64,000 bases of DNA from Amycolatopsis lexingtonensis (GTDB lineage Bacteria > Actinomycetota > Actinomycetes > Mycobacteriales > Pseudonocardiaceae): NCBI RefSeq assembly GCF_014873755.1, contig NZ_JADBEG010000001.1, positions 2,296,501-2,360,500 of the forward strand, written 5' to 3'. The notes below the pieces were generated by a model. It ran no database searches, was not told the DNA's origin, and saw only the letters and a program-made list of their open reading frames with translations. The translations under genes and the position numbers were made by a program. This document shows positions 17,641-46,275 of the stretch, piece by piece (position 1 is the stretch's first letter; every line of letters begins with the position of its first letter).

Positions 17641-17662
17641 GAAATTTAGTTCCATTGTCGAA

Positions 17663-19086: not shown

Positions 19087-19093
19087 TCCCCTC

Positions 19094-24160: not shown

Positions 24161-24182
24161 GCTGAATCCCTTGTGTCGTCTG

Positions 24183-24560: not shown

Positions 24561-24635
24561 GGGACGTGATCACCACGTGGCGGGACATCTTGGGACGTCC
24601 CTGGTACCGTCCAAGACGTCCCTACACGTCCCAAG
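24561..24635. promoter_or_regulatory. ACGTCCC repeat cluster: candidate operator of the AICE switch
   Basis: In the gap between the leftward core operon and the rightward regulator, the unit ACGTCCC or its complement occurs repeatedly: GGGACGT at 24561, a related GGGACAT at 24582, the palindrome GGGACGTCCC at 24592-24601, GACGTCCC at 24615, and ACGTCCCAAG at 24626-24635. CTTGGGACGT (24589-24598) and the last unit form a perfect 10-bp inverted repeat. The cluster ends 8 bp before the regulator's ATG, fitting autoregulation. Confidence 0.6.
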
Positions 24636-24643
24636 GGGTGCCG

Positions 24644-25387: not shown

Positions 25388-25395
25388 GAGGCAGC

Positions 25396-25863
25396 ATGTC
25401 CCGAGTCGACTACTACAACGACCCGAACGCACCCAAGGCCAACAGCATCGCAGTAGCAGTGTCGGCGTTCATCCAGGACGACGAAGGCCGGATCCTGATG
25501 ATCAGGCGCACGGACAACGACCTGTACTCCATCCCAGGTGGCCAACTGGAGCTTGGCGAGACATTGGCCCAGGCTGCGGTCCGTGAGGTACGCGAGGAGA
25601 CCGGCATCGAGTGCCAGGTCACGGGAGTGATCGGTCTGTACTCCAACCCGAAGCACGTCATCGCCTACGACGATGGCGAAGTCCGCCAAGAGTTCTCTAT
25701 TTGTTTTCGAGCGTTGCCGGTAGGCGGAATCACTCGACGGAGCAACGAAAGCAGCGAAGTCCTTTGGATAAAACCGAAGGACCTGGAACAATTGGATATC
25801 CACGAGTCTATTAGGCTTAGGATTAATCACGCACTCGAAAGGGGCGATATCTACTTCAGCTAG
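25396..25863 (+). CDS. NUDIX hydrolase
   Basis: A 155-residue pyrophosphohydrolase. The Nudix box is complete: GGQLELGETLAQAAVREV followed by REETGIE, giving the metal-binding REVREE glutamates. The substrate (nucleoside diphosphate derivative) cannot be read. GGAGG lies 8 bp before the ATG. NUDIX genes next to the regulator are common in AICEs. From about base 25,690 the gene turns AT-richer than its first half, a possible recombination join with the right-hand cargo. Confidence 0.9.
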   Translation: MSRVDYYNDPNAPKANSIAVAVSAFIQDDEGRILMIRRTDNDLYSIPGGQLELGETLAQAAVREVREETGIECQVTGVIGLYSNPKHVIAYDDGEVRQEFSICFRALPVGGITRRSNESSEVLWIKPKDLEQLDIHESIRLRINHALERGDIYFS

Positions 25864-25891
25864 GCTCATCACCAAGCAGAGGACAAACGCC

Positions 25892-26698
25892 TTGCTTCCG
25901 ACGACATTTGCCCAGATAGCCGTACTATCACTACTTGTTATCCCAGGATTTGTCTACAATTCCACAAGGTCAAAATTCAGAGGACCGACGCCGGAGGATC
26001 GCGAGCTAGGAGTTCGGGTTCTGCGCGCCCTTGGCGTGTCAGCCGTTCTCGCACTGGTATACATCGCCCTACTGGGACGCTGGATGCGCCCAGACCTTGT
26101 CAACCCCGCCCACCTTTTGGACAGCCCTCGCCGCTCCGCCGCCAAAGCCCTTCTTCTGATCTTCATTATTCCAGCACTGCTAGGGATAACTTCACACGTC
26201 AACTGGGCCCACAGTAGAATTATCAAATTCCCATTATCCAAGAAACCTCGTTGGAACAGAGACAAATGGGTCGAATGGTGGAAGTTGACCTTTCGGTCAT
26301 ATAGTCCAACTCCGACCGCGTGGGACCACATGGGACCGAAGGTCGACGGATTCGTTAGAATCTTGACGAAAGATCAAGTTTGGATTGGCGGATACGCCTC
26401 TGCCCAGAAGTTTATCAGCGCCTACCCAGAAGGCAGAGAAATCTTTCTAGACTTCGCCTACGAAATGACCGCGGACGGAGAATTCGGCGAACCGATTCCA
26501 GACTCCGAGGGCGTCTGGATCAATTGCGCAGACGCTCTAGTCGTCCAGTTGATCTCGGCAAACTCCAACGACGACAGCGAGGATTTCGTCGAAGAGCAAC
26601 AGGAACCTAGCGCGGCCATGAGCAGGCTGGCACAACGAGGCCGCCTGTGGATAATGAACCATACAAAGGGACTTCGGAGGCGCAGTGACGAAGGGTGA
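25892..26698 (+). CDS. DUF6338-like membrane protein (cargo)
   Basis: A 268-residue protein with membrane helices near residues 5-22, 45-65 and 85-105, then a cytoplasmic domain. That domain has the DUF6338 pattern by memory: SPTPTAWDHMGPKVDGFVRI, KDQVWIGGYASAQKFISAYP, REIFLDFAYEM and GEPIPDSEGVWINCADALVVQLI. The start is TTG, chosen because the first helix begins there and no ATG is near. Function unknown; the neighbourhood of two tiny basic proteins on an AICE suggests a defence or competition module. GC content is low for this genome. Confidence 0.65.
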   Translation: MLPTTFAQIAVLSLLVIPGFVYNSTRSKFRGPTPEDRELGVRVLRALGVSAVLALVYIALLGRWMRPDLVNPAHLLDSPRRSAAKALLLIFIIPALLGITSHVNWAHSRIIKFPLSKKPRWNRDKWVEWWKLTFRSYSPTPTAWDHMGPKVDGFVRILTKDQVWIGGYASAQKFISAYPEGREIFLDFAYEMTADGEFGEPIPDSEGVWINCADALVVQLISANSNDDSEDFVEEQQEPSAAMSRLAQRGRLWIMNHTKGLRRRSDEG

Positions 26699-26852
26699 TC
26701 GAAACAAGAAGGTCGAAGACACCAAGAAGTGGTACGCGCCTCGAAGCGGCGGCTATACAAGTCGCTCAACACAGACAGGCGACGTTGCGAAGCAACCACC
26801 CCGCCCGCCGAAAGGCTCCGGTGGAATAGTAACCAAAAGAGGAACCAAGTAG
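26685..26852 (+). CDS. Tiny basic protein, first of a pair
   Basis: A 55-residue ORF starting at GTG with GGAGG four bases upstream. It overlaps the DUF6338-like gene's end by 14 bp. Lys/Arg-rich N-terminus (TKGDRNKKVEDTKKWYAPRSGGY) and a tail PPRPPKGSGGIVTKRGTK. The tail matches the next ORF's end in the pattern PKG-x-GGI-x(3)-[RK]G-[ST]-K. No known family. Confidence 0.6.
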   Translation: MTKGDRNKKVEDTKKWYAPRSGGYTSRSTQTGDVAKQPPRPPKGSGGIVTKRGTK

Positions 26853-26864
26853 AGGGGATATCCC

Positions 26865-27071
26865 ATGCCCAAAAAGGAAGGACGCCACGTCACAGGTGGC
26901 GGCTGGGTTGGCAAAGCACAACCCGCTTCACGCGATGCGAACGGAGCCCAAGGACAAAGCGGAAGTTCCGAAGAACGCGGTGGCTGGGTTTCATCAAATC
27001 CCCGCCCGACGACCCCACCAAAGGCACCAAAAGGTAAAGGTGGAATCTCTCCCGCCAAGGGTTCGAAGTAA
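26865..27071 (+). CDS. Tiny basic protein, second of a pair
   Basis: A 68-residue ORF, ATG with AGAGGGG eight bases upstream, 12 bp after the first tiny ORF. Gly-, Pro- and Lys-rich, with two GGW segments (TGGGWVGKA and ERGGWVSSN) and a tail PPKAPKGKGGISPAKGSK related to the first ORF's tail. Probably a diverged tandem duplicate; function unknown. Confidence 0.6.
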   Translation: MPKKEGRHVTGGGWVGKAQPASRDANGAQGQSGSSEERGGWVSSNPRPTTPPKAPKGKGGISPAKGSK

Positions 27072-27326
27072 GCGGCTCTCAGCGACCTTGCCGAACTTGG
27101 CTCTACTGGATCAAGGCGCCGCCGCTGGCGGCGCGCACGTCACCGTCCGCACGGCGAACCTGCCCAGGCGACACGCCGACCTGCCGCTCCGCTCCGGCCG
27201 GCGGCCGCCGGGCAGGCCCGCCGATCCGTTAGCAGCGCACGCGCGCCGCCAACGGGACTCCCACATGCCTAGGAAGCCCAGCCGCACCGACCGTCCTGCC
27301 TCTCTACTACCAGCGAAAGCACCAGG

Positions 27327-27614
27327 TCACTGGACTCGCCGACTCCTTGGCTCGACCAGCCAACCCCGCACTTCGCTGTCGTCGTGCAGGTAGTCGCCGC
27401 CAGACCCGTCATGTAGATCGATTCCGTGGAGCAGATCCAAGGCCCACAAGCTCAGCTCATCCCACGAGAGACCGTCATCCGTCCGCCACCGTCCAGCCCA
27501 TCGGTCGACCGCGTCACGGCTCATTCGGCCATCAAGAAGCGCAACGAAGTGCGCCTCAATCTCGTCCAAGTCCGGCTGCGTACCAGCGATCATGCGTCGA
27601 CCGTACCGCGTCAT
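27327..27614 (-). CDS. Hypothetical protein near attR
   Basis: A 95-residue acidic protein. The core DLDEIEAHFVALLDGRMSRDAVDRWAGRWRTDDGLSWDELSLWALDLLHGIDLHDG looks well formed and is predicted helical; no family recognised. Other ATGs at 27632 and 27593 are possible and none has a clear ribosome-binding site. It reads leftward, opposite to the cargo genes. Confidence 0.5.
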   Translation of the reverse strand: MTRYGRRMIAGTQPDLDEIEAHFVALLDGRMSRDAVDRWAGRWRTDDGLSWDELSLWALDLLHGIDLHDGSGGDYLHDDSEVRGWLVEPRSRRVQ

Positions 27615-27897
27615 GCCAGCTGACGACATCACCGGACGCTAAAGCGCCGGACCACAGCCACCCGCCGCTCAGCTCCCCACCTGAGGTCCAAAAGCAGTGG
27701 TCACCAGCGGCTGTCCTCGCCTCCGATTCTCTAACGCCGAGCCACCCGCATCAAGGCGGGAAAGATGCCTTGACACGGCCGTCTCAACGCTAGGAGCCGC
27801 ATGGGCGAGAACGACGACCAAGACCAGGACTTCCGCTCGGGAGGCCCGCCGGCCGCCAGCAGGACCGAACCAACTCACCCTCTGGACCTGGGCGGAG

Positions 27898-27919
27898 CTG
27901 GGGACCACGTGGGGACCAC
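27898..27919 (+). repeat. Right subterminal repeat, candidate integrase arm-type site
   Basis: Matches the left copy (15776-15797) at 21 of 22 positions in direct orientation and lies 95 bp inside the attR core. Directly after it, ACACGTGGTCC adds an inverted half. See the left copy for the argument. Confidence 0.5.
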
Positions 27920-28013
27920 ACGTGGTCCGCGCCCTTGAACGAACCGCATGTGAGCGAACTTCAGGTGATCTTGCGAACCGCCGCTGACCTGTGGAAACCG
28001 CTACTCCAACGTC

Positions 28014-28059
28014 CTGGGGGTCAAGGGGTCGCAGGTTCAAATCCTGTCAGCCCGACGGA
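28014..28059 (+). repeat. attR core (46-bp direct repeat)
   Basis: Exact copy of 15639-15684: the 3' part of tRNA-Pro from the anticodon loop plus four bases. It has no 5' tRNA half and is not a functional tRNA. Confidence 0.93.
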
Positions 28060-33546: not shown

Positions 33547-34164
33547 TCAGTTCTCCATGCCCGGCGTGCGCTGGTGCAGCGAGAAGTCGACGCGGTTGTT
33601 GTCGGTGTCGGTGCTCAGGATGTCGCGGGCGCTCGCCGCCGCGAGCTGTTCCGTGGCCGCCGTTTCCGGCAGCGCTGCCTGGCCCTCGCGCGGGGTGGCC
33701 GCCGCCGCGTTGAAGGCGACGCCGTCGACCTTGGTGCCCGTCTGGCTGAAGACCGCGATGCCGCCGTTCGTCGGGATGCCCTCCGGGCCGGCCAGGAAGA
33801 ACGGGACGACGTTGGTCTGGTCGGAGATGGTGCCGGAGAAGTTCTGGCCGGTCAGCACCATGAACTGGCCGGGGTTGCCCTTGGGCTGCAGCACCATGCC
33901 CGCCGGCAGCGTGATCGTGTCGAGCACCGCGTTGGACGGGCCGTAGACGCGGATCGTGTAGCCGGTCAGGTCCTGCGAACGGTTCGACACGTTGCGGATC
34001 TCGATGAACTCGTCGGTCGCGCCGTTCGGGCCCCGGGTCGAGACCTCGTTGATCACCACCGACGACGAGACCGCGGGCTGCTCTTCGGTCGCGGCGGCCA
34101 CACCGCCGGCCGCCAGGCCCGCCAGTGCGGTCAGGATTGCCGAGCCGGCCAGAAGACGACGCAT
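33547..34164 (-). CDS. Exported lamin-tail-domain protein
   Basis: A 205-residue protein with a signal peptide (RRLLAGSAILTALAGLAAGGVAAA) and a lamin-tail (LTD) beta-sandwich: SSVVINEVSTRGPNGATDEFIEIRN, DLTGYTIRVYG, PAGMVLQPKGNPGQFMVLTG, and GGIAVFSQTGTKVDGVAFN. The tail ends DTDNNRVDFSLHQRTPG, a motif of nuclease- and surface-associated LTD proteins. Ligand unknown. AAAGGA precedes the ATG. Shares its tail pattern with the second LTD gene 0.5 kb away. Confidence 0.82.
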   Translation of the reverse strand: MRRLLAGSAILTALAGLAAGGVAAATEEQPAVSSSVVINEVSTRGPNGATDEFIEIRNVSNRSQDLTGYTIRVYGPSNAVLDTITLPAGMVLQPKGNPGQFMVLTGQNFSGTISDQTNVVPFFLAGPEGIPTNGGIAVFSQTGTKVDGVAFNAAAATPREGQAALPETAATEQLAAASARDILSTDTDNNRVDFSLHQRTPGMEN

Positions 34165-34278
34165 GATCGAATCCTTTCGGGAGAAATAGAGAAATACCGT
34201 TTTCCGCCATTCTGAAACTGTTTCCGTCGGCGGTGAGACCAGTATCCAACGAAGATCGACGGCGCCGGAAGGGGCCAG

Positions 34279-34581
34279 TTATCCGGTACTTTCCCGATCG
34301 GCCGAACGGCGCCGGCTGCGGGTCACCGCCGCCGCCAGCTCCAGCTCGGCGCACGGCGTGTCCAGCGCCCGGCTGAGCCAGCTCCGCCAGTACGGGCCCG
34401 GAATCCTTTTACCGCGCTCCCACCGGGAAACCTCCTCCCGGGTGACGCTGTCGTTGCCGGACATCGCGTGCAGCCTCGTCGCCAGGTCGTCCTGGGACCA
34501 GCCTTTCGCGGACCGCCGTTCGGCGAGCAGCTCGCACATCGAAAAGCGAACCGATCCGTGCCTGCTTCGTGCGGGCACCAC
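34279..34581 (-). CDS. Small XRE-family regulator between two LTD genes
   Basis: A 100-residue protein with an XRE helix-turn-helix (MCELLAERRSAKGWSQDDLATRLHAMSGNDSVTREEVSRWERGKRIP) and a Cro/CI-like tail (GPYWRSWLSRALDTPCAELELAAAV). The GTG at 34581 has GGAAAGG 7 nt upstream; an internal ATG at 34539 directly before the domain is an alternative. It probably regulates the flanking LTD genes. Confidence 0.75.
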   Translation of the reverse strand: MVPARSRHGSVRFSMCELLAERRSAKGWSQDDLATRLHAMSGNDSVTREEVSRWERGKRIPGPYWRSWLSRALDTPCAELELAAAVTRSRRRSADRESTG

Positions 34582-34613
34582 GAACACCCCTTTCCACGAG
34601 ATTCGACAGAAAA

Positions 34614-35138
34614 TCAGTTCCGCGCGCGGACACAGCTGAAGTCGACGCGGTTGTCGTCGGTGTCCCGGCTCGCCGCGTCGCGCGATTCCGCGAGCCCGGG
34701 GCACGCCACCGCGGCTTCCCGTTCCCGGCACGGCGAAGATGCCGCCCAGCCGACGGCGTCGGCGCGCACGCGGCGGTGGTCCAAGAGCATTTCGCCGTCG
34801 CCGGGGACCTCCGGCACGACCAGCTCCGCCGCTTCGGTCCCGCCGAAGCCGGCGGCGGCGATCAGGAAGCGGCCGCCGGCGGGGATTTCCGCGCCCGCGG
34901 GCAGCAGCGCCAGCTCGACCGGCGCCGGGCCGCCCGTGCACGACCGCACGGACCAGCCGCTCAGGTCGGCCGTCGCAGCGCCGGCGTTGCGCAGGACGAG
35001 GTACCCCGCCGGGCCCGCCAGGACCTCCTGGATCTTGACCTGGGGTGCGGGTCCGGCCGGGAGCCCGCCGAGCGCGAGCACCAGGGCCAGCGCGCCCAGC
35101 ACGGTCACGGAACCGGCCTCCCGGAAAACGGCTGCCAC
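34614..35138 (-). CDS. Second exported lamin-tail-domain protein
   Basis: A 174-residue protein with an N-terminal signal or anchor (VTVLGALALVLALGGLPAGPA) and a degenerate LTD fold: VKIQEVLAGPAGYLVLRNAGAATADLSGWSVRSC, LLPAGAEIPAGGRFLIAAAG, and GEMLLDHRRVRADAVGWA. It ends SRDTDDNRVDFSCVRARN, like the end of the first LTD protein. Two Cys pairs are possible disulfides. Upstream of the XRE gene on the same strand. Confidence 0.75.
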   Translation of the reverse strand: MAAVFREAGSVTVLGALALVLALGGLPAGPAPQVKIQEVLAGPAGYLVLRNAGAATADLSGWSVRSCTGGPAPVELALLPAGAEIPAGGRFLIAAAGFGGTEAAELVVPEVPGDGEMLLDHRRVRADAVGWAASSPCREREAAVACPGLAESRDAASRDTDDNRVDFSCVRARN

Positions 35139-35211
35139 GCCGAAGTCGTCACTCCGGCCAGCCTAGGAAGAAGATCGCCGGCTCACAGGATCCGGCCGGT
35201 ACCGAACCTCG

Positions 35212-35253
35212 CCCGGCCGCGGTACCCCCGGTACCGCCGGTACCGCGGCCGGG
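35212..35253 (-). terminator. Terminator of the NarL-like regulator
   Basis: Perfect 15-bp arms (CCCGGCCGCGGTACC and complement) with a 12-nt loop directly abut the regulator's stop codon. GGTAC also repeats in the loop, allowing an alternative pairing. Confidence 0.75.
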
Positions 35254-35922
35254 TCAACCGCCGGCACCCGGCGGGCGGAACGGGCCCGCGCACGGGACCG
35301 GGCCCGCCGGTGCCCCGAGCGCGTGCACCAGCTCCCGCCGGCTCGAGAACCCGAGCTTGTGCAGGATCCGGCTGGCGTAGTTCTTCACCGTCTGCCGGGC
35401 CAGGTGCAGCTCGCCGGCGATCTCGTCGTTCGACCAGCGGCACAGCATCAGCGCCAGGATGTCCTCCTCCCGCTTGGTCATCACGCTCGGGTACGGCACG
35501 GACCCGGGCAGCAGCGGCGCCGTCTCCCCCGCCGGTACCCAGACCCGCCCGCCGGCGAGGGTGGACCGCACCGCGGCCATCAGCCGCGTCCCGCTGGCGG
35601 ACTTGTGCACGAAGCTGTCGGCGCCGGCGTTGAGGGCCGTGGCGACGGCCGCGGGCGAGGCGTCGCCGGAGAACACCAGCACGGCCGCGCGGTCGAGGTG
35701 TTCCTTGGCGAACTGGCAGATGGCCGCACCGGCTGGCGCACCGGCGAGGGACAGCTCGGTGATGACCATGTCGGGGTGGTCCACCTCGCAGTGCCGCAAC
35801 GCTTCCCGCTCGGTACCGGCTTCGCTGACCACCCGGACCCCGGCGTAGTCCCGCAGCAGCTGCCGGACCGCGTACCTGAGCACGGGCTGGTCGTCCACCA
35901 CGAGCGTCGTGACGCAGTGCAT
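35254..35922 (-). CDS. NarL/LuxR-type response regulator with Glu at the phospho site
   Basis: A 222-residue regulator. Receiver domain: acidic pair D10-D11 (LVVDDQP), Ser85 (VFSGD) and Lys107 (FVHK) are present, but the acceptor position reads ITELSL with Glu56 where Asp is expected. The C-terminal LuxR helix-turn-helix is normal (MTKREEDILALMLCRWSNDEIAGELHLARQTVKNYASRILHKLGF). A Glu there may mimic the phosphorylated state or show phosphorylation independence. No sensor kinase gene is adjacent. The ATG at 35922 is chosen as it directly precedes the receiver strand. A strong terminator follows. Confidence 0.85.
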   Translation of the reverse strand: MHCVTTLVVDDQPVLRYAVRQLLRDYAGVRVVSEAGTEREALRHCEVDHPDMVITELSLAGAPAGAAICQFAKEHLDRAAVLVFSGDASPAAVATALNAGADSFVHKSASGTRLMAAVRSTLAGGRVWVPAGETAPLLPGSVPYPSVMTKREEDILALMLCRWSNDEIAGELHLARQTVKNYASRILHKLGFSSRRELVHALGAPAGPVPCAGPFRPPGAGG

Positions 35923-36090
35923 GGTTCCCCTTGTGTGTTGTCCGGGCTCGGGCCAGCTGCGATCTTCCCGCTTCCGCAGCCGGGCGCAGACCGTCATCCG
36001 GGTGATACGGCGCGTACTCGCACCGGGTGGCGGGCACGCCGAACGCCACCCCGGCGGTGGTGCCGGGGTGGCGGCCGGGAACGGGTCCCC

Positions 36091-36630
36091 TCAGCCGGGG
36101 CTGCAGACGTCCAGTGCCGAAACGGCCTCCTCGAGGTGGTCGTGCAGCACGGGCGCCGACCGGGCGGCCAGCGCCTTGACCTCCGGCGACCACCCGTGCC
36201 GGGTCTCCCGCTCGCCCAGCGCGATCGCCTCCAGGTGCGCACCGATCTGGTCGCGCAGCCAGGCCGCGTCGAAGTCCGGGCCGGACCGGGCCGCCAGGTC
36301 GGCGAGCTGCGCGAGCTTCCCGGGCTCCGGCACGGAATACAGCGTGACGCCCTCCCGGGACGCCACGCCGATCAGGTCGGCGTCCAGTTCCGTGTGGTGC
36401 GCGGCGAAGCGGGGGCCCAGCTCCCGCACGGCGGCGCACTTGCCGCGATCGGTGAGGTCACCGGCGAAGATCTCGAACAGGTTGTTCTGGTGGGTCCGGT
36501 TGAGGTACTCGCGGTCCTCCGCCGACACGTCGGCCCGTACCGGTGGCGCCGGGACGGCGGCCGCGGCCGGTGCCACCGGCAGCAGGACACCGAGCAACGC
36601 GGTGGCGGCCAACGCGGACCGTGCTTTCAT
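36091..36630 (-). CDS. Exported DUF4142 protein
   Basis: A 179-residue protein with a signal peptide (SALAATALLGVLLPVAPAAAA) and a four-helix DUF4142 fold: DREYLNRTHQNNLFEIFAGDLTDRGKCAAVRELGPRFAAHHTELDADL, followed by two more helices ending GWSPEVKALAARSAPVLHDHLEEAVSALD. Such domains are found in periplasmic or cell-surface proteins of unknown function. It lies 97 bp downstream of the diaminobutyrate aminotransferase gene on the same strand with no terminator visible between, so it may be read through from that operon. Confidence 0.75.
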   Translation of the reverse strand: MKARSALAATALLGVLLPVAPAAAAVPAPPVRADVSAEDREYLNRTHQNNLFEIFAGDLTDRGKCAAVRELGPRFAAHHTELDADLIGVASREGVTLYSVPEPGKLAQLADLAARSGPDFDAAWLRDQIGAHLEAIALGERETRHGWSPEVKALAARSAPVLHDHLEEAVSALDVCSPG

Positions 36631-36727
36631 CGTGTTCTCCCATGGTCGGGGTCGGGTCGGTCCGATCGTCGGGGTTCCGTTGCGGCGCGGGCAATCCGCG
36701 CACCGAAGCCCGGCGTCCGATCCGGCG

Positions 36728-38092
36728 TCACACCGGTCGGCAGTGTTCGATCGCTTCGAGCAGGATCGTGCTCGCCACCTCCACGACGTCCGCGGTCACG
36801 GTGAGCGGCGGCAGCAGCCGGACGACGCCGTCGTCGCGGCCGCCCAGTTCGACGATCAGGCCGTTGCGCAGCGCGTGCGCCTGCACCGCGCGGGCGTAGT
36901 CCGCCGCGGGGCGGCCGTCGTGCGGGGATGCCAGCTCGATGCCCCACATCAGGCCGATCCCGCGCACTTCCCGCACCCACGGCCGGCCGCGCAGCACCGA
37001 CAGGGCCCGCCCGAGCTGCTCGCCGCGCCGCCGGACGTTGCCGAGGACGTCGTCGCGCAGCATGATCCGCACGGTCTCCGTGCCGGCGGCGAACGCGGCC
37101 TGGTTGCCGCGGAAGGTCCCCGTGTGCGCGCCGGGCGCCCACCGGTCCAGCCGCCGGTCGTAGAGGATGACCGCGACCGGCAGGCCCATCCCGCTCAGCG
37201 CCTTCGACGCGACGACGACGTCGGGCTCGATGTCGTACCGCTCGAAGGCGAACCAGGTACCGGTGCGGCCGCAGCCGGTCTGCACCTCGTCGACGACGAG
37301 CGGGATGTCGAGTTCGCGGGTCAGCGCGCGGACCCGGTGGACGAACTCGCGGCGGGCCGGGATCACCCCGCCTTCGCCCTGCACCAGTTCCAGCACCACG
37401 GCGGCGGGCCGGGGCACCCCGCCGAGCGGATCGCGCAGCGCCCGTTCCAGCAGGACCGCGCAGTTGATCTCGCAGTCGTCCGGCGTCAGCCCGAGCGGAC
37501 AGCGGGAGCATGACGAGTACGGGAAGAAGTGCACGCCCGGCATTCCGTTGGCGATCGGCTGCTTCTGCCGGACCAGGCCGGTCAGCGCCATCGCCGCGTG
37601 GCTCGCGCCGTGGAACCCGCCTTGGAACGACACGACGTCCCCGCGCCCGGTCGCGGTCTTGCACAGCTTGAGCGCCGCGTCCACCGCGTTCGCCCCCGCC
37701 GGGCCGCAGAAGTGGATCTTCATCCGCGACCGCAGCGCGGGCGGGAGCATCGCCAGCTGCGCGTCGACGAACGCGCGTTTCGCCGGCGTCGGGAAGTCCA
37801 GCCCGTGCGTGAGCCGCCGGAGCTGCGCGTTCGCCGCGGCGACGACTTCGGGGTGGTTGTGGCCCAGCGCCAGCACCCCGGCACCGGACAGGAAGTCGAT
37901 GAAGACGTTGCCGTCGACGTCGCGGACGTGGCTGCCGTCCCCTTCGGCCAGCGCCACCGGCAGGTTCCGCGGGTAGACGCGGGCGTTGGACTCCCAGCGC
38001 TCCTGGTGCGCGAGGTACTCGGCCGACCGCGGGCCGGGCAGGTCGCCCGTGACGTGCGGCCGCGGTCCCGCGGCGATGGGGACGCCGGTCAT
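36728..38092 (-). CDS. dat: L-2,4-diaminobutyrate aminotransferase
   Basis: A 454-residue class-III (PLP fold type I) aminotransferase of the diaminobutyrate:2-oxoglutarate family. It would convert aspartate-4-semialdehyde to L-2,4-diaminobutyrate. Seen: GAGVLALGHNHP near the N-terminus, CGPAGANAVDAALKLCKTATGR for cofactor phosphate, GGFHGAS, VVDEVQTGCGRTG (D268) and the Schiff-base lysine in VVASKALSG (K297), plus the Cys-rich YSSCSRCPLG segment typical of this branch. Its ATG overlaps the synthetase stop (ATGA). No ectA or ectC is nearby, so ectoine synthesis is unlikely and supply of monomer to the adjacent polymerase is the probable role. Confidence 0.88.
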   Translation of the reverse strand: MTGVPIAAGPRPHVTGDLPGPRSAEYLAHQERWESNARVYPRNLPVALAEGDGSHVRDVDGNVFIDFLSGAGVLALGHNHPEVVAAANAQLRRLTHGLDFPTPAKRAFVDAQLAMLPPALRSRMKIHFCGPAGANAVDAALKLCKTATGRGDVVSFQGGFHGASHAAMALTGLVRQKQPIANGMPGVHFFPYSSCSRCPLGLTPDDCEINCAVLLERALRDPLGGVPRPAAVVLELVQGEGGVIPARREFVHRVRALTRELDIPLVVDEVQTGCGRTGTWFAFERYDIEPDVVVASKALSGMGLPVAVILYDRRLDRWAPGAHTGTFRGNQAAFAAGTETVRIMLRDDVLGNVRRRGEQLGRALSVLRGRPWVREVRGIGLMWGIELASPHDGRPAADYARAVQAHALRNGLIVELGGRDDGVVRLLPPLTVTADVVEVASTILLEAIEHCRPV

Positions 38093-41000
38093 GACACCCT
38101 CCCCTGGACGAGTTCCCCGGCCCCTTCGGTGGCCGGGTTGCCCCGCCAGCGCGACCGCGGCGGGGTCACGGAGCCCTTCATCAGGAACGCGTCGGCTTCG
38201 ACGACGGTCCCCTCGCCGACCGTGACTCCGTAGTGGACGAACGCGCCGACGCCGATCGTGCTGCCGGCGCCGACCGTCGTGTGGTCGGACTTGAACGTGC
38301 CGTCCTCGAGCGAATGGCACTGGAGCACGCTGCCGGCGTTGAGGACGACGTCGTCGCCGATCGTGACCAGCGACTTCTCCGGGATCCCGCACCCGTCGTC
38401 GTAGACGCGGCGGCCGATCCGGACGCCGAGCAGGCGCCACAGGACGCCCTTGAACGGCGTGCCGTCGAACAGCGCGAGGTGACGGCCGGGACTCAGCTTC
38501 CAGAACCGTTCGTGCCGCCAGAACACCGGGTCGTAGATCGAGCAGAACCGCGGCCGCAGCCGCCGGAACCCCTGCGCGGCGCGCTCGGCCAGCACCAGGA
38601 ACAGGACCGAGAACAGCAGCGCGCCGGCGATGCCCCCGGCCGTGGCGAAGGCTCCGAACCGCGGGTGCAGGCCGCCCGCGACGACACCGATCCCGAGGAC
38701 GCCGGTCAGGTTCAGCCACTGCACCACCAGGTACCAGCCCATGGTGGCCGTGTTGTGGCGCAGCTTGGCCGCGAGGCCGCGGCGGCGGGCGGCGCCGGTC
38801 CACAGGTGGTCGAAGCCGCGGTCCCGCCGGACCGAGCGCGGGATCTCGAACGCCGGCGAGCCGAGCAGGCCGACGTCTTCGCGGACCGGCCCGTCGAGCG
38901 GGACGAGGACCTTGGTCGCCAGCAGGCAGTTCCGGCCGACGCGCGCTCCCGGCGGGTAGGCGATGTCGTTGCCCAGGAACGTCTCCGGCGCGACGGCGGT
39001 GCGGCGGAGGCGGAACGACGAGCCGGAGTAGTCCGCGTTGAGCAGGGAAAGCCCGTCCGAGACCATGGTCCCGGTGCCGACCGTGCACAGGAACGGCGTC
39101 TCGTGCTTGACCTCCACGCCGAAGTTGGACCCGGTCTGGCGGACCTGGGACAGGTCGTACCCGAGCGCCCGCAGGTAGTGCACGATGTAGCTGCTGTCGC
39201 CGAACAGGTAGGTGAAGGTGCGCAGGTTGGTCAAGCGCGCGATGGCCCGCTGGACGGCGTGGTGGAACCCGTAGAGCGGGTAGACGCGGTCCGGCACCAG
39301 GAACGGCGCCAGCAGCCGGGGCAAGGTCAGCACGAGCGTGAGACCGCCGGCGAGGGCCCCGGCGTAGAGCAGCGTCGAGGACGCCAGCTGGTCGCGGTAG
39401 AACGCCCAGCCGGTGAGGTCCGCCTGGGCGGGCTGGACGAAGTGCGCGACGACCGTGCCCAGCGCGAGCGTGAGCGGCGTCGTCACCAGCAGGAAGGACG
39501 CCAGCTGGGCCACCGCGAACGCCGTCCGCCGCGCGCGCCCGGCGAGTCCCGCGGGCAGGGCCTGGTAGTCCACTGTGGAGGGACGGCCGGGCGAGCCGTG
39601 CCAGTGCTCCCCGGCCGGCACCGCCTGTCCCGCGGCGAGCGACGAGGAATGCCCGAGCTGGGCGTCGTCGCCGAGCGCGGTGCCGATGTCGAGCACGGCC
39701 GTCTCGCCGACGAACGCCCGGTTCCCGATGGTGACCCGGCCGGTCCGGATCCGGCCCGCTTCGGCCCGGTAGCAGGCGATCGAGGCGTCCTTCCGGATGA
39801 CGGCGCCCGCGCCGACGGTCAGCAGATCGGTGCACACCGGCGGCCGCCGGACGAGGATCACCGCCCCGGCACCGATCTTCGCCCCGAGCAGCCTCAGGTA
39901 CAGCGAGTACAGCGGCGAGCCGGCGAACAGGGCCAGCGGGCAGAACCGGGTGACCGTCTTGACCGTCCAGAACCGCAGGTAGGCTGGGCTCCACAGCGGG
40001 ATCTCCCCCGGTTGCCAGCGCCCGACGAGGAGCCACTTCACCACGACCGGCACCACGCAGAGCGCCGCGAACCCGGTGCCGGCCGCGGCGACCGCGCGCA
40101 GGTAGCCGTCGAGCAGGCCGCCCGCCGCCGACACCCAGTCGTAGGCCGTGTCGGCCAGCACCGCCGACCCCGCGATGTAGGCCAGGAAGACCAGCAGCTG
40201 GTAGGCCCCGCACAGGACGTGGGCCGGTGTGCTCGCCCGGTGCGGCGTTCCGGTCCGGACCGGCCGGGGCCGCGCTGCGGGTACCGAGCGGGCCAGCTCG
40301 CGCACGGTCGGGTGCAGGTAGAGCTGCTTGACCGGCAGCGTGAGCTCGCCCGACTCCCGCACGCGCGAGCAGAACTTCGCCAGCAGCAGCGAATCCGCGG
40401 CGAGGTCGGCGAAGAAGTGCGCGGTGACCGAGACGCGGTCGAGCCGGCACACCTCGGCGAGCGCGCCGGCAAGGAGCCGTTCGGTGTTCGTTTCCGGTGG
40501 CGTGTACGCCGTTTCCGCGGCAAGCGCCCGCGGGCCGGCCGGAGCGGGCAGGTGCGCGCGGTCGGCCTTGTGGCTCGGCGTCATCGGAATCCGGTCGAGC
40601 CGCTCGAAGTACGCCGGCACCATGTAGGCGGGCAGGCGTTCGCGCAGTAGGCGTCGCAGCTCGCCGGGGTCGGCGCCCGGCGCGTCCCGGCGCAGGCTGT
40701 AGTAGGCCACTAGCTCGGTCGTCCCCGGCTCCGGTTCGTGGGTCCCGACGACGGCCTGCGCCACGCCCGGCGCCCGCAGCAGGATCGACTCGATCTCGGT
40801 GAGCTCGATCCGGTAGCCGCGCACCTTGACCTGGGTGTCGGTCCGCCCGTGGTACTCGATCTCGCCGTCGGCGGTGATCCGGCCGAGGTCGCCGGTGCGG
40901 TAGATCCGCCCGGACGGGTTACCGTCGATGCCGAGGAAGTCCGGGATGAACGCGCGCTCGGTCAGGTCCGGGCGGTTCAGGTAGCCCTCGGCCAGCCCGG

Positions 41001-42099
41001 CCCCGGCGATGCCGATCTCCCCGAGTTCCCCGGCGGGCAGTGCCCGCGGCTCCGCCGGGTCGAGGATGACCACGGAGTACGTCGGCAGCGGCACGCCGAT
41101 GGTGACCGGCCGGTCCGGGTGCAGCACCGACCAGGTCGCGGTGACCGTCGTTTCGGTCGGGCCGTAGACGTTGAGGAAGCGGCGGCCGGGCCGGGACCAG
41201 CGCGCGACCAGGTCCTCCGGGCAGGCTTCCCCGGACACCAGCAGAAACCGCAGGTCCGGCAGGTCGTCCTCGAGGGTGGCCAGCAGCGTCGGCACGCAGC
41301 ACAACGCCGTGATCCCGGTGGCGCGCAGGAAGTCCTGGAGCTCGGCCCCGGCCGGTGCGCCGCCCGCGGGCCGGGGCACCAGTGTCGCGCCGGACAGCAG
41401 CGGCACCCAGATCTCCTCCACGGAGAAGTCGAAGGCGATCGTCATGCCCTGGTAGACGCGGTCCCCCGGCCCCAGGCCGTACGCCTCGGCGGCGACGCCG
41501 ACGAAGTTGCCGATGGCGGCGTGGTGGATCGGCACGCCCTTCGGCCGTCCGGTGGAGCCGGAGGTGTAGACGACGTAGCAGAGGTCCCCGGCCGGGACGT
41601 GCGCCGGCCGGGTGCCCGGACGGGCGGTGATCCGGGCGGCCTCCTCGTCGACGCAGAGCAGGTCCTTGCCCTCGCCGAACCGGTCGCGCAGCGGGGACGC
41701 GGTCAGCACCAGCCGGACCCCGGCGTCCCGCAGGATGAAGGCCAGCCGGTCGTCGGGGAAGGCCGCGTCGAGGGGCACGTATGCCGCGCCGGCCTTGAGG
41801 ACGGCGAGCATCGCGACGTAGCTGTCGACCGGTTCGGTCAGGAGCAGGCCGATCCGGTCGCCGGGCCGCACGCCGCGGGCGAGCAGGTGGCGGGCCAGGC
41901 GGTTGGCGCGGGCGTCCAGGTCGCCGAAGGTCAGCCGGACGGCGCCCGCGTCGACGGCGAGCCGATCGGCTTCGCGGTCGCAGAGCCGCTCGAAGAGGTG
42001 GTCGAGCCGGGTGGCTTCGCCCGGGCGGGGGCCGCCGGCGCCGGTGAGGACGCGACCGTCGGCCGTCGACACGGCCGAGGGCGTTTCGCGCGGGGTCAC
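38089..42099 (-). CDS. pls: Pls-like membrane NRPS, predicted poly(2,4-diaminobutyrate) synthetase
   Basis: A 1336-residue single-module synthetase with the architecture of epsilon-poly-L-lysine synthetase (about 1300 residues). Adenylation domain (about 25-515): YVVYTSGSTGRPKG, NVYGPTETT, YRTGDL, and K511 in SHKADR. Carrier domain: FFADLAADSLLLAKF with phosphopantetheine Ser570. From about 625 on come membrane helices (ending near 690, and about 860-930 and later) alternating with three related soluble C-terminal domains that show hexapeptide-like repeats (KIGAGAVILVRR, VTIGNRAFVGE). No standard condensation HHxxxDG or thioesterase is seen, as in Pls. Such enzymes activate one diamino acid and polymerise it through the side-chain amine at the membrane. 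The GTG start overlaps the aspartokinase stop and the stop overlaps the aminotransferase start; these partners argue for diaminobutyrate, not lysine, as the monomer. Confidence 0.85.
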   Translation of the reverse strand: MTPRETPSAVSTADGRVLTGAGGPRPGEATRLDHLFERLCDREADRLAVDAGAVRLTFGDLDARANRLARHLLARGVRPGDRIGLLLTEPVDSYVAMLAVLKAGAAYVPLDAAFPDDRLAFILRDAGVRLVLTASPLRDRFGEGKDLLCVDEEAARITARPGTRPAHVPAGDLCYVVYTSGSTGRPKGVPIHHAAIGNFVGVAAEAYGLGPGDRVYQGMTIAFDFSVEEIWVPLLSGATLVPRPAGGAPAGAELQDFLRATGITALCCVPTLLATLEDDLPDLRFLLVSGEACPEDLVARWSRPGRRFLNVYGPTETTVTATWSVLHPDRPVTIGVPLPTYSVVILDPAEPRALPAGELGEIGIAGAGLAEGYLNRPDLTERAFIPDFLGIDGNPSGRIYRTGDLGRITADGEIEYHGRTDTQVKVRGYRIELTEIESILLRAPGVAQAVVGTHEPEPGTTELVAYYSLRRDAPGADPGELRRLLRERLPAYMVPAYFERLDRIPMTPSHKADRAHLPAPAGPRALAAETAYTPPETNTERLLAGALAEVCRLDRVSVTAHFFADLAADSLLLAKFCSRVRESGELTLPVKQLYLHPTVRELARSVPAARPRPVRTGTPHRASTPAHVLCGAYQLLVFLAYIAGSAVLADTAYDWVSAAGGLLDGYLRAVAAAGTGFAALCVVPVVVKWLLVGRWQPGEIPLWSPAYLRFWTVKTVTRFCPLALFAGSPLYSLYLRLLGAKIGAGAVILVRRPPVCTDLLTVGAGAVIRKDASIACYRAEAGRIRTGRVTIGNRAFVGETAVLDIGTALGDDAQLGHSSSLAAGQAVPAGEHWHGSPGRPSTVDYQALPAGLAGRARRTAFAVAQLASFLLVTTPLTLALGTVVAHFVQPAQADLTGWAFYRDQLASSTLLYAGALAGGLTLVLTLPRLLAPFLVPDRVYPLYGFHHAVQRAIARLTNLRTFTYLFGDSSYIVHYLRALGYDLSQVRQTGSNFGVEVKHETPFLCTVGTGTMVSDGLSLLNADYSGSSFRLRRTAVAPETFLGNDIAYPPGARVGRNCLLATKVLVPLDGPVREDVGLLGSPAFEIPRSVRRDRGFDHLWTGAARRRGLAAKLRHNTATMGWYLVVQWLNLTGVLGIGVVAGGLHPRFGAFATAGGIAGALLFSVLFLVLAERAAQGFRRLRPRFCSIYDPVFWRHERFWKLSPGRHLALFDGTPFKGVLWRLLGVRIGRRVYDDGCGIPEKSLVTIGDDVVLNAGSVLQCHSLEDGTFKSDHTTVGAGSTIGVGAFVHYGVTVGEGTVVEADAFLMKGSVTPPRSRWRGNPATEGAGELVQGRVS

Positions 42100-43364
42100 G
42101 GCCTCGCCTCCGCCGGCCGGTCGAGGTGGAACGCCCGGTGCAGCGCGCGGACCGCGTGGTCGAGCCGGTCGAGCGGCAGCACCGCGGTGAGCCGGCCGGC
42201 GGAGATCGCCATCGCGGGCATCGTGGCGCCGAGCTCGCCGGCGGTGCGCAGGACTTCGGCGGGCATGTCCGGCCGGTCGAGCAGGCCGGTGCCGACCACC
42301 GACACCGCACCCAGGTCGTCGTCGAGGGTCCAGCGCGCGCCGAGGTCTTCGACGAGCTGCCGGGCCGGGCCGGCGAAGGGCGCGGTCCCGCGCAGCGTGA
42401 ACCGCAGCTCGCCGGCCCCCGGCCAGCTCAGCGTGTCCGGGTGCAGCCCGTGCCGGGCCAGGTCGGCCAGCAGCCGCGCCCCGCGGTCCGGGGACAGCCC
42501 CGGTGCTTCGATCCGCAACAGCCGCACGTCGCGGTCGTGCGCGATGCCGACCACCTCCCCGCCGCGCTCGAGCGCCGGTTCCACGGCCCGCACGCGGGTG
42601 CTCGCGCCCGTGCGCGAAGAGTGCCGCACGTGCACCGTCACCCCGTGCTGCCCGGCCAGCTCGACCGATCTCGGGTGCAGGACCCGCGCGCCGCCCCTGG
42701 CGAGCTCGGACATGGCTTCGTAGGAGATCGACGGCACCTGCCGGGTGTCCGGCACGATCCGCGGGTCCGCGGTCCGCACGCCCTCGACGTCGGTGCAGAT
42801 CTCGCACTCGGCCGCGCCGAGCACGGCCGCGAGGGCGACGGCGGTGGTGTCGGAGCCGCCTCGCCCCAGCGTGCGGAGTTCGCCGTCGTGGTCGCGGCCC
42901 TGGAACCCGGCGACCACGACGACCCGGCCGTCGCGCAGCCCGTCGAGGATCCGGTCCGGGTCGATGTGCGCGATCGTGCCCGCCCCGGGCCCGCCGGTCA
43001 CCTCGATGCCCGCCTGGTCGCCCGTGAGCGAGACGGCGTCCACTCCGCGGCGGGTCAGCGCCAGGGTCAGCACGGCGGCCGAGACCTGTTCCCCGGTCGC
43101 CAGCAGCTGGTCCAGCTCACGGGGATCCGGCCGGTCGGTGAACTGCCCGGCCAGCGCGACCAGCCGGTCGGTCGCGTCGCCCATCGCCGAGACGACCACG
43201 ACGATCCGCCGTCCGGCCGCGGCCAGGTCCGCGACCCGCGCGGCCACCCCGCGCACCAGCTCCGGCGTCGCCAGCGACGAACCACCGTATTTCCGCACCA
43301 CGATCCCGGCCACGCGTGCGTCGCCCGATATGCCGGATTCCGCCATCGCCCATGAATTATTCAC
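42096..43364 (-). CDS. lysC: Aspartokinase dedicated to the polymer operon
   Basis: A 422-residue aspartate kinase, first enzyme toward aspartate semialdehyde. Seen: the kinase motif KYGGSS (K25), VSAMGDATD, LLATGEQVSAAVL, LGRGGSDTTAVALAA, and two C-terminal ACT regions (VGIAHDRDVRLLRIEA and GAVSVVGTGLL). The GTG at 43364 is chosen because GGAGG stands 8 nt upstream; an ATG 18 bp later is possible. Its stop overlaps the synthetase start (GTGA), coupling precursor supply to polymer synthesis. ACT effector residues that would show feedback insensitivity cannot be judged by eye. Aspartate-semialdehyde dehydrogenase is missing here and must come from elsewhere. Confidence 0.9.
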   Translation of the reverse strand: MNNSWAMAESGISGDARVAGIVVRKYGGSSLATPELVRGVAARVADLAAAGRRIVVVVSAMGDATDRLVALAGQFTDRPDPRELDQLLATGEQVSAAVLTLALTRRGVDAVSLTGDQAGIEVTGGPGAGTIAHIDPDRILDGLRDGRVVVVAGFQGRDHDGELRTLGRGGSDTTAVALAAVLGAAECEICTDVEGVRTADPRIVPDTRQVPSISYEAMSELARGGARVLHPRSVELAGQHGVTVHVRHSSRTGASTRVRAVEPALERGGEVVGIAHDRDVRLLRIEAPGLSPDRGARLLADLARHGLHPDTLSWPGAGELRFTLRGTAPFAGPARQLVEDLGARWTLDDDLGAVSVVGTGLLDRPDMPAEVLRTAGELGATMPAMAISAGRLTAVLPLDRLDHAVRALHRAFHLDRPAEARP

Positions 43365-43391
43365 CTGTCGCCCCTCCACTTTCGGCAAACC

Positions 43392-43409
43392 GCCCACGAC
43401 GTCGTGGGC
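43392..43409. promoter_or_regulatory. Palindromic operator candidate of the polymer operon
   Basis: GCCCACGAC and GTCGTGGGC form a perfect 18-bp palindrome 28 bp upstream of the aspartokinase GTG, just before its GGAGG. The place suits a repressor operator or a leader hairpin. Confidence 0.5.
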
Positions 43410-43712
43410 AGAACTTCCGGACGCCCATTCCCGTGCCACCGATAGCGGGCTCGACGCGCGGATTTCCCTTGCCCGACCGCGAGAACCGGTCGTACACAGT
43501 GAACCTAGTTCGCCATTTCCGGGCCCGGTACCTCCGTAAGCGGTAACCAAAACTGCCGCCATTACCGGCATCGATCTTCCGTTCATACGATCGACCGAGC
43601 CAAAAAGACGACGCATTCCATCGACACGCCGGTAAAACGTCGAGACAACCGACGGACAACGACCGGCAACCGATTGCGCACCGCCGTTCACCGCGAATTC
43701 CGCGGGCCCCCA

Positions 43713-43728
43713 CCCTCAGCCGGGGGTA
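43713..43728. promoter_or_regulatory. 16-bp motif shared with the LuxR gene upstream region
   Basis: CCCTCAGCCGGGGGTA is the exact reverse complement of 48219-48234. It is a quasi-palindrome (CCCTC...GGGGG). Two exact copies in regulatory gaps 4.5 kb apart suggest one shared regulator. Confidence 0.45.
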
Positions 43729-43922
43729 ATGACGTAACGCCCGGACCACCAGTGCACGCAAATGGCGGAAAGATCGCCTGCGAATGCCGTCGTACTTCGT
43801 GATGAATCGTCGACGATGCCCCGGCGAACCCCGCGTTTTCCGGTATCGTCGCCCCCGGCCGGGCCGCCCGCCCGGCCGGTCCCCAGTGCCCGGCTCCGGC
43901 CGTGAAACCCCCGGGAGAACGC

Positions 43923-44342
43923 GTGAACTCCGCTGCGCAGACCCGCTGCCGCCGTCCGGACCCGGCCGCCATCGTGCTCGCGCAGCAGGCGCTCCTGCGG
44001 TTCGGCGCCGGCGACTTCGCCGGGGTCGCGCAATTGCTCGCCCCGCGCGTCGAATGGCACGGGCCCACTCCGGCGAAGCCGGGCGGCACCTCCGAAACCT
44101 GCACCCGGCGGCAGGTGGAATCGTTCCTTTCCGCCTTCGATTCCGCGCTGACCGTCGCCGGGCTCAGCGTGGGCCGCTGGGTCTGCGAGGAGGACACCGT
44201 CGTGGTGCTGGGCCGCATCCGCTGCCAGGCCAGGGCCGACGGCGCCGAGAAGTCGTTCGAGTTCGCCGTGTCCCTGACGGCCGGGGCGGACCTCGTCGAC
44301 TCGTGCTGGCTGCTCGCGCACCCGGCGGGTCCCGCGACGTGA
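43923..44342 (+). CDS. NTF2/SnoaL-like protein
   Basis: A 139-residue protein with the cone-shaped alpha+beta fold of the NTF2/SnoaL group: IVLAQQALLRFGAGDFAGVAQLLAPRVEWHGPTP, then VESFLSAFDSALTV and strands CEEDTVVVLGRIRC and EKSFEFAVSLTA. Members include isomerases and cyclases but many have no known activity, and no catalytic pair is clear. The GTG start has GGGAG 6 nt upstream; it overlaps the next TetR gene (GTGA). Confidence 0.7.
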   Translation: MNSAAQTRCRRPDPAAIVLAQQALLRFGAGDFAGVAQLLAPRVEWHGPTPAKPGGTSETCTRRQVESFLSAFDSALTVAGLSVGRWVCEEDTVVVLGRIRCQARADGAEKSFEFAVSLTAGADLVDSCWLLAHPAGPAT

Positions 44343-44968
44343 CCGGCACCGCCCGGGGCCGCCGGACGCGCGAGGAACTGGTCGACGCGGCCGCCGCGAT
44401 CTTCGACCGGGTCGGGTTCGCGGGCAGCACGCTGGAAACCGTCTGCGCGGAGGCCGAAGTGACGAAAGGGGCGCTGTACTGCCACTTCCCGTCCAAGGCC
44501 GCGCTGGCCGCGGCCGTCGTCGAGCGGTACTGCCCGCTGTGGTGGGAACTGGCGGCGCGGCTGTCCGCGCGGCACCCCAGCCCGGTCCAGGTCCTCGTCG
44601 GGCTCACTTTCGAGGTCGCCCGGCGGCTGCAGCACGACCCGGCGTACCGGGCGAGCGTCCGGCTGCCCCTGCACGCCGAACTGGCGGACGTGCTCGCGCC
44701 CGCGCACTTCCTCGGCTGGCTCGCGGTGGTGCGCGACCTCCTGCGCCGGGCCCGGCGCGCGGGCGAACTCCGCGGAGATGTGGACGTGCGCGCGGCCACC
44801 GAAAGCACGGTCGCGGAGTTCGCGGGTACCCACCTGCTCGCCCGCGCGACGGCCGGCGAGCACGACCTGGTCGGGCGGGTGCGTGCGATGTGGCGGCAGC
44901 GGCTGCCCGGGTTGGTCGAGCCCGGCACGTCCGCGCGGCTGCGGCTCGAACCGCCGGAGCCGGAATGA
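44339..44968 (+). CDS. TetR-family regulator
   Basis: A 209-residue repressor. The N-terminal helix-turn-helix (RTREELVDAAAAIFDRVGFAGSTLETVCAEAEVTKGALYCHFPSKAALAAAVVERY) resembles that of gamma-butyrolactone receptors (TKGALY-x-HF-x-SK), but the ligand domain is too diverse to assign. Translationally coupled to the NTF2-like gene and divergent from the polymer operon, so it may act on the 558-bp gap between them. Confidence 0.82.
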   Translation: MTGTARGRRTREELVDAAAAIFDRVGFAGSTLETVCAEAEVTKGALYCHFPSKAALAAAVVERYCPLWWELAARLSARHPSPVQVLVGLTFEVARRLQHDPAYRASVRLPLHAELADVLAPAHFLGWLAVVRDLLRRARRAGELRGDVDVRAATESTVAEFAGTHLLARATAGEHDLVGRVRAMWRQRLPGLVEPGTSARLRLEPPEPE

Positions 44969-45014
44969 CCGCCGCAATCCCGCCTGTTGTCACGCACCGA
45001 AAGTCGGTCGACGA

Positions 45015-45099
45015 GCGCCCCAATGTGGCGTTCGGTGCGTCCAGCGCACCCAATGTGGCGTTCGGTGCGTTGGACGCAACCAACGCCACATTGGGGCGC
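45015..45099. repeat. 85-bp palindromic intergenic repeat, copy 2
   Basis: Termini GCGCCCCAA and TTGGGGCGC; inside, CAATGTGGCGTTCGGTGCGT occurs twice 30 bp apart, then CCAACGCCACATTGG in inverse orientation. It lies between a convergent TetR and esterase gene pair. Confidence 0.85.
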
Positions 45100-45228
45100 A
45101 TCGCCGGACCGCTGCCGGCGCCTCTCCCGCTCCGGTGGGGTGAACCCCGCCGCCCGCAAGGGAACGTACGGACGCGGCCGCGCGGGGCCCACCTCCGGGC
45201 GGGTGATACCCGGGGAATCCTCAGCTCG

Positions 45229-46275
45229 TCAGCCGCCGAGGCGCAGGGGCTGGGTCAGCATCGGGAACGACTGGTGCAGGGAACGCTGCCACCACGGCCA
45301 GTTGTGCGTGCCCGGCCCGTAGAAGTCCGTCGTCACCTGCGCCCCGACCTCGCGCAGCCGCCGGGCGAGCGCGGTGTTCATCTCCGCGCACAGCGGCTCG
45401 ATGAACAGGTCCGGTGGCGTGCCCGGCGGGTCGAGCACGCCCGGGGTTCCGTTGCCGCACGCCAGGTACAGCGGGATGCCGGCCAGGTTGCGGGCCAGGT
45501 CGTACGGGTTGTGCGCGGCCCAGACGTTCGCGTTCAGGTTCGGATCTCCCCACAGCGCCGTGGGGTCGTAGCCGTCCTTCACCAGAACACCCTGGATCAG
45601 GCTCGGCCCGCGGGCTCCCTCGTACGTCGTGTGCACGACGCCGCTGTAGGACGCCGCCGCCACGAACATCCCCGGGTGCCGTCCCGCGTAGGCCAGTGCG
45701 CCCAGCCCGCCCATCGACAGGCCTGCGATCGACCGGACCGTCCCGGCGCCGTAGCCCCGCTCGAGGATCTGGCGCAGTTCGGTCAGGTGGAAGGTCTCCC
45801 AGCCCGGCGCGCCGCCCGCGCCCCGGTTGTACCAGTCCGAATAGAACCCGTCCCGCCCGCCGGACGGCATCACCACCAGCATCTCGGCGCCGCGGGTGAA
45901 GGTGGCGACGTCGGTCGAGCGCGTCCACGACGTGTAGTCGTCGCCCGCGCCGTGCAGCAGGTACAGGACCGGCCAGGTGCGCGTGGAGCCGGGTGTCCAG
46001 TCCGCCGGGTGCAGCAGCCGCACCATCGCCGTGGCCGCGAGGGCCGGGGATTCGACGGTCAGGTCGAGCATGGTGGGGCTCAGCCGGTGTTCGGCGACCA
46101 CCCGTGCCCCGCCGTCGGCCACCGCGGCGGCGTTCGCGGTACGGGGCAGGGCGGCGACGGCGAGCGCGGACAACCCCGCGGTCGCGCCGAGGACGAACTT
46201 GCGCCGGGATACTTGCGACGGCGGGGGTGCCACCGCGCGGGTCGGGATCTGCCGGTCTTCGACGGGCCTGGGCAT
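45229..46275 (-). CDS. Tat-exported alpha/beta-hydrolase esterase (antigen-85/esterase D-like)
   Basis: A 348-residue exported hydrolase. A twin-arginine signal (SRRKFVLGATAGLSALAVAALPRTANA) is followed by the putative-esterase fold: PVLYLLHGAGDDYTSWT, VVMPSGGRDGFYSDWYN, nucleophile Ser in IAGLSMGGLGA, and the His in YGPGTHNWPWW. This resembles mycolyltransferase and acetyl-xylan/feruloyl esterase relatives; the substrate is unknown. Two hairpins lie between it and the upstream acyl-CoA synthetase gene, so it is a separate unit. Confidence 0.85.
   Translation of the reverse strand: MPRPVEDRQIPTRAVAPPPSQVSRRKFVLGATAGLSALAVAALPRTANAAAVADGGARVVAEHRLSPTMLDLTVESPALAATAMVRLLHPADWTPGSTRTWPVLYLLHGAGDDYTSWTRSTDVATFTRGAEMLVVMPSGGRDGFYSDWYNRGAGGAPGWETFHLTELRQILERGYGAGTVRSIAGLSMGGLGALAYAGRHPGMFVAAASYSGVVHTTYEGARGPSLIQGVLVKDGYDPTALWGDPNLNANVWAAHNPYDLARNLAGIPLYLACGNGTPGVLDPPGTPPDLFIEPLCAEMNTALARRLREVGAQVTTDFYGPGTHNWPWWQRSLHQSFPMLTQPLRLGG

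Follow-up and report, generated by a model that had tools for sequence, protein, structure and literature searches.

Cationic isopeptide homopolymers have antimicrobial and cell-penetrating activity, and to our knowledge few of their producers have been characterised. Among the described systems closest to the locus studied here, the poly-L-diaminobutyrate (poly-L-Dab) synthetase has its source in Streptomyces celluloflavus according to passages of PMC8117764, where the legend of Fig. 1C, citing Yamanaka 2020, gives pldA together with dat and ask. The poly-D-Dab cluster of Streptoalloteichus hindustanus, as outlined in passages of PMC8225329, consists of the synthetase PddA, the racemase PddB, the transaminase PddC and the aspartate kinase PddD. 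The PDAP synthetase of Streptomyces albulus PD-1 uses Dap, and the relevant passages of PMC4668381 place its own precursor genes not close by; the same passages state that it weakly activates Dab in vitro, so adenylation-domain preference need not fix the polymer.

We analysed a window of 64,000 nucleotides from Amycolatopsis lexingtonensis, whose host contig is a single one of 10.7 Mb. Three consecutive minus-strand genes encode an aspartokinase (AsK, PddD-like, 42096..43364), a Pls/PosA-family single-module synthetase of 1336 aa (Pls, 38089..42099), which we predict to be a poly-L-Dab synthetase, and an L-2,4-diaminobutyrate:2-oxoglutarate transaminase of 454 aa (DAT, PddC-like, 36728..38092). 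They are joined by a GTGA overlap between AsK and Pls (42096..42099, minus strand) and an ATGA overlap between Pls and DAT (38089..38092, minus strand). AsK matched AA_kinase PF00696 at 168.6 bits and TIGR00657 above its cut-off, and its ACT region is degenerate; it may start at GTG 43364, ATG 43346 or GTG 43298, with the stop codon ending at 42096. DAT scored 418.6 bits against TIGR00709 (cut-off 401.6). The original prediction had placed three overlapping genes here and had read the flanking ones as the first and last enzymes from aspartate to L-Dab; the genes and overlaps are real, the overlaps recur in relatives, and both enzyme families were matched.

We examined 25 relatives, 20 of them other genomes of the genus and five from the family. 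All 25 keep the 4-base AsK/Pls overlap; a DAT was matched in 23, and all of these except L121 (22 of 23) keep the 4-base Pls/DAT overlap as well. Such conservation is not chance and strongly indicates that the three genes form a single translationally coupled unit. The 20 genus loci were hand-picked among the matches listed, and two more of similar appearance (G006, G058) were left out. Two of the 20 (L094, L099) have lost DAT or hold only a fragment of it, and in another (L082) it is split over two frames; AsK and Pls are retained in all three. On the plus strand, a divergent neighbour at 44339..44968 (start approximate) encodes an ScbR-type TetR regulator of the butyrolactone receptor family (NF041196, 172 bits, cut-off 150). 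It also adjoins the operon in L082 and L093, the closest two relatives fetched, and is a possible regulator and only a candidate as an operon member. No Rfam family reached its gathering score in window positions 34000-46000.

The best explanation, to which we assign a probability of about 0.8 from sequence comparison, is that the operon is of the poly-(gamma-L-2,4-diaminobutyrate) type, of the published pldA-dat-ask kind, with that polymer as its predicted product. AsK would convert aspartate to aspartyl phosphate, the cell's Asd would presumably reduce this to the semialdehyde, and DAT would transaminate the semialdehyde to L-Dab. The adenylation domain would then adenylate L-Dab and load it onto the carrier domain, and the membrane-embedded tandem domains would link Dab units repeatedly by isopeptide bonds. 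An AsK that lacks the usual ACT motif and has escaped feedback would let supply track synthetase expression. The original prediction of a Dab homopolymer with hard-wired precursor supply agrees with the pocket, the gene context, the fusions and the overlaps reported below; its product stays a predicted one.

The synthetase matched the Pls/PosA terminal-domain model TIGR02353 at 695.7 bits, against a curated cut-off of 423.1, over model positions 2-695 of 695, with one adenylation and one carrier domain before it, as in the Pls/PosA family. The adenylation domain (residues 36-511; 40567..41994, minus strand) was found by Pfam (PF00501, PF13193) and its pocket read by alignment. It is followed by the carrier (PCP) domain (PF00550, residues 542-604; 40288..40476, minus strand) and by the terminal region (residues 630-1323; 38131..40212, minus strand), which is expected to hold membrane segments together with three transferase-like domains in tandem. 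Crude hydropathy gave clusters near residues 626-692, 732-750, 862-931 and 1124-1170, where the family expectation is six or seven membrane segments surrounding three soluble tandem domains. The original prediction of a Pls-like adenylation-carrier-membrane/tandem-C architecture is thus borne out for the adenylation, carrier and terminal domains. Its "tandem-C" wording needs changing, since the C-terminal part gave no Pfam match to a condensation domain. Pfam's weak matches in this part are to hexapeptide-transferase repeats, among them PF00132 at a score under cut-off, and section 5 of PMC8117764 terms the three tandem domains acetyltransferase-related. Elsewhere, several Pls-family proteins end in a 4'-phosphopantetheinyl transferase domain (P0090 above the Pfam cut-off and L022 8001-13055 below it, with P0038, P0077 and P0101 also listed); such proteins may activate their own carrier domain.

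We next consider the gene context of related synthetases. Named Pls loci were found by two conserved peptide patterns, and 80 matches at distinct contig places are listed, which are no random sample. A same-strand DAT lies within 5 kb in 59 of these 80 loci, 34 at 65% identity or more to the window DAT and 25 at 42% or less, and some of the latter may be EctB-like proteins or further class-III aminotransferases. AsK is present in at least 32 of the 80, all 32 of which also have DAT; it was counted by a match to the window AsK at 100 bits, so that divergent or partial copies, such as the partial one in the L147 genome, are missed. Loci L119-L157 were selected by DAT and excluded from these linkage counts, 12 of the 39 having no Pls match at 500 bits. 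Among the loci, L148 and L149 (genus genomes G045 and G048) carry a DAT 68-69% identical to that of the window, but the 19 kb retrieved around it gave no match to Pls at 500 bits. A Pls-family gene above cut-off occurs in all 80 genus genomes searched (79 others and the host), and among the synthetase's best 14 relatives listed, those named are Amycolatopsis.

In some relatives the two proteins are one. Pls followed by DAT in a single open reading frame was seen in four rows from three genomes among 81 same-strand Pls/DAT pairs (DAT match above 300 bits), namely L024 8001-13886 (Pseudonocardia sp. N23), L051 8001-14150 (Pseudonocardia dioxanivorans, the genome also of L143) and L135; all three genomes are Pseudonocardia. 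In L051, L024 and the environmental protein P0349, Pfam found AMP-binding and class-III aminotransferase domains within a single protein, and P0323 is listed with both as well. Natural fusions of this kind favour Dab as the substrate. Several genomes are counted twice in the alignment, tree, fusion and ACT rows, for example as L001/L089 and L051/L143.

The pocket residues of the window synthetase are D224, F225, E228, C267, L287, S289, V311, V319, T320 and K511, giving DFECLSVVTK. Passages of PMC10522769 assign Phe at position 2 to PDAP and PDAB synthetases (the S. albulus PD-1 enzyme thereby sharing Phe as well as architecture with the window Pls), Met to ornithine and Ala to lysine synthetases. 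The window Pls has Phe there and not the Ala of lysine enzymes. A second Pls in the genome (C1:44979-48950, in locus L107; at C1:46863), 30% identical to the window Pls, has the pocket DAESIGTVVK, which differs from DFECLSVVTK at six of ten positions and by which only it is classed as lysine-like; no DAT or AsK match occurs in the 16-kb stretch L107. DFECLSVVTK itself was read in 109 of 139 aligned Pls rows (the pocket was unreadable in three, and several genomes are represented twice). Pls adjoining other DAT/AsK pairs have DFECLSAVTK, and two racemase-linked loci, including that of PddA of S. hindustanus (L142), have DFECLSCVSK. Among the 59 DAT-bearing named loci listed, Cys stands at position 4 in 58 and Ser at position 6 in all 59. 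By comparison, none of the seven DFEY[LIV]GTVTK loci with long flanks (L112, L189-L194) has a DAT or AsK match; the short loci of this type, L196-L208, have little flank, come in part from the genomes already named, and were left uncounted. This DAT-free group would seem to hold the better Dap candidates.

The pocket code by itself is no proof of Dab, since 16 of the 21 named loci listed without a same-strand DAT within 5 kb have the identical DFECLSVVTK. Three of these 21 have a DAT on the opposite strand and six have short flanks. For 15 relatives that lack DAT, the neighbouring genes were judged by their first residues; no Dap-synthesis gene stood out, which does not prove that none is present.

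Phylogenetic analysis with FastTree assigned the window Pls to a 122-row core clade (support 1.0) and PddA (L142) with L125, L126, L147 and L112 in a separate clade (support 0.996), and a 19-row tree agreed. The comparison suggested with the original prediction puts the window synthetase in a clade apart from PddA, in a sampling that does not include PldA. Within this deep clade we found no characterised member, PldA and the Dap synthetase being outside the comparison; neither S. celluloflavus nor S. albulus was among the named rows in the top 120 of a Streptomyces-centred protein search. PldA of S. celluloflavus may fall beside the PddA-side loci or within the window clade. On the PddA side, no racemase match was found near L188 and L126 (Pls, DAT and AsK) or near L147 (Pls and DAT). 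A plasmid of Streptomyces sp. NBC_01527 carries an annotated Pls/PosA synthetase, a diaminobutyrate transaminase and an aspartate kinase; this synthetase, a row of neither tree, is 52% identical to PddA.

How does the locus compare with the two published clusters? As in pld and pdd, DAT and a pathway aspartate kinase are linked to the synthetase, and a separate LysC is encoded elsewhere. The likeness to pldA-dat-ask of S. celluloflavus, for which an L-Dab polymer is expected, lies in the combination of synthetase, DAT and aspartate kinase and is drawn from the legend in PMC8117764, with identity, clade and gene order outside the comparison. The L142 row runs Pls, DapF-like gene, DAT, AsK, and its DapF-like protein is 100% identical to an S. 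hindustanus record, from which we infer that L142 is pddABCD. Measured against L142, the window DAT is 69-70% identical, the aspartate kinase 40% and the synthetase 36-37%. The window operon differs in having no racemase corresponding to PddB and in its gene order, AsK-Pls-DAT as against Pls-racemase-DAT-AsK.

To assess the regulatory part of the kinase, we compared the operon AsK with the genome's own LysC (7854740). Identity is 48-49% in the kinase domain and 24-25% in the ACT region. The control comprised 29 aspartokinase loci from 25 genomes of the family. In each of the other 24 genomes (L159-L182), the best match is 75-97% identical to LysC in the kinase domain and 70-95% identical in the ACT region, and 24 of 24 retain the TSEIRIS motif, which we take to be part of the LysC inhibitor-binding site. 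The motif is likewise present in L183 (kinase 65%, ACT 64%), which is the Pls-linked copy in L126. The control loci without it are L184, L185, L186 and L187, the last two Pls-linked. Across 77 Pls- or DAT-linked kinase rows (duplicates included; the stretches of L131, L138, L153 and L154 lack a Pls match), exact TSEIRIS occurs in one (L126), and the kinase domains are 42-68% identical, the ACT regions 21-64%. An eroded ACT region beside an intact kinase domain suggests that the operon AsK has lost feedback by Lys and Thr, which we predict it escapes. L184 and L185 are ACT-eroded aspartokinases from two other genera of the family. Kinases of this type are candidates for feedback-free aspartate-family supply.

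Other products have to be weighed against poly-L-Dab. Membership of the same protein family would also suit an epsilon-poly-lysine synthetase whose flanking enzymes merely boost aspartate-family flux, and aspartokinase does feed lysine as well; DAT is outside the lysine pathway. With natural Pls-DAT fusions within the window's own clade and a pocket so different from DAESIGTVVK, this reading is extremely improbable, and a lysine polymer was rejected by the pocket. Very unlikely, too, is a poly-D-Dab product as with PddA, made with a racemase encoded elsewhere. The set of AsK, Pls and DAT is the same in S. hindustanus L142, but the two racemase-linked synthetases have DFECLSCVSK and belong to the other clade, and no DapF-like racemase lies near the window operon; a whole-genome PF01678 search returned one protein, at 4833221-4833958, distant from it. 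That location makes L-Dab a better guess than D-Dab for the predicted monomer, and the D-Dab polymer was rejected for want of a racemase at the operon and for the different clade.

The enzymes might instead chiefly supply Dab for use elsewhere, for instance in ectoine or in the product of a nearby NRPS. In favour of this, the window start and the sequence just left of it hold a large frame for an NRPS and an ornithine/lysine N-oxygenase. The 4-base overlaps that tie DAT and AsK to Pls in relatives make this hardly credible. Supply of ectoine was rejected, a separate TIGR00709 gene, 37% identical to the operon DAT, being present at 8135989. The product could also be a polymer of a different short diamino acid (Dap), a chain that combines Dab with another unit, or an oligomer that is short or capped. 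This reading is unlikely, yet several observations would fit it: section 10 of PMC10522769 calls PDAP and PDAB synthetases hard to tell apart by alignment, the 16 same-code named relatives among those listed lack a same-strand DAT, and no characterised member of the window clade was found, with PldA outside the comparison. Against it, DAT and AsK overlap the synthetase gene, DAT is fused to the synthetase in relatives, and the DFEY[LIV]GTVTK group would be the better home for Dap.

The poly-L-Dab reading makes the operon a clear candidate producer of a cationic homopolymer in Amycolatopsis. The original prediction's claim that a tight Pls operon with both enzymes merits a first description falls away: pldA-dat-ask, listed in PMC8117764, already makes the operon kind known, pddABCD is published as well, and both enzymes occur in at least 32 of the 80 named loci listed. 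In the open-access literature searched, subscription papers being outside it, we found no earlier description of an Amycolatopsis poly-Dab operon or of an ACT-eroded Pls-linked aspartokinase. What the analysis adds to the known kind is the deeper position in the tree, the conserved overlaps, the fused proteins of relatives and the eroded ACT region. A further-reaching idea, possible but doubtful, is that the window clade is a third, uncharacterised and very widespread Dab-polymerase lineage of actinobacteria, with looser proteobacterial kin, which is repeatedly coupled or fused to its own DAT and joined by an ACT-decayed AsK. It would then be a self-supplied, feedback-free poly-L-Dab factory, possibly with its own chain length or end group.

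The pocket comparison suggests a genomic key, in which Cys at position 4 and Ser at position 6 with a DAT would indicate Dab, Tyr at 4 and Gly at 6 without DAT would mark Dap candidates, and Ala at 2 would indicate Lys. For D-Dab, Cys at 7 and Ser at 9 with a racemase is suggested from two loci only. The key would serve where Dap and Dab synthetases are, in the passages of PMC10522769, hard to distinguish.

Two further elements were seen in the window. An ornithine/lysine N-monooxygenase (218-1525) stands beside a 6078-aa NRPS frame to the left of the window (C1:2275578-2292395), together probably a hydroxamate siderophore cluster. The stretch 15607-28059 is probably an integrated pSAM2-like element (AICE). 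It includes tRNA-Pro(ggg) (15607-15681), and at least 46 bp from the 3' part of this tRNA gene are present as identical copies at 15639 and 28014. The putative element encodes a RepSA initiator (19094-20719, minus strand), an FtsK/SpoIIIE-like protein (21072-22925, minus strand) and a HEPN_LA2681 protein (16027-17640, plus strand), and its GC content is lower.
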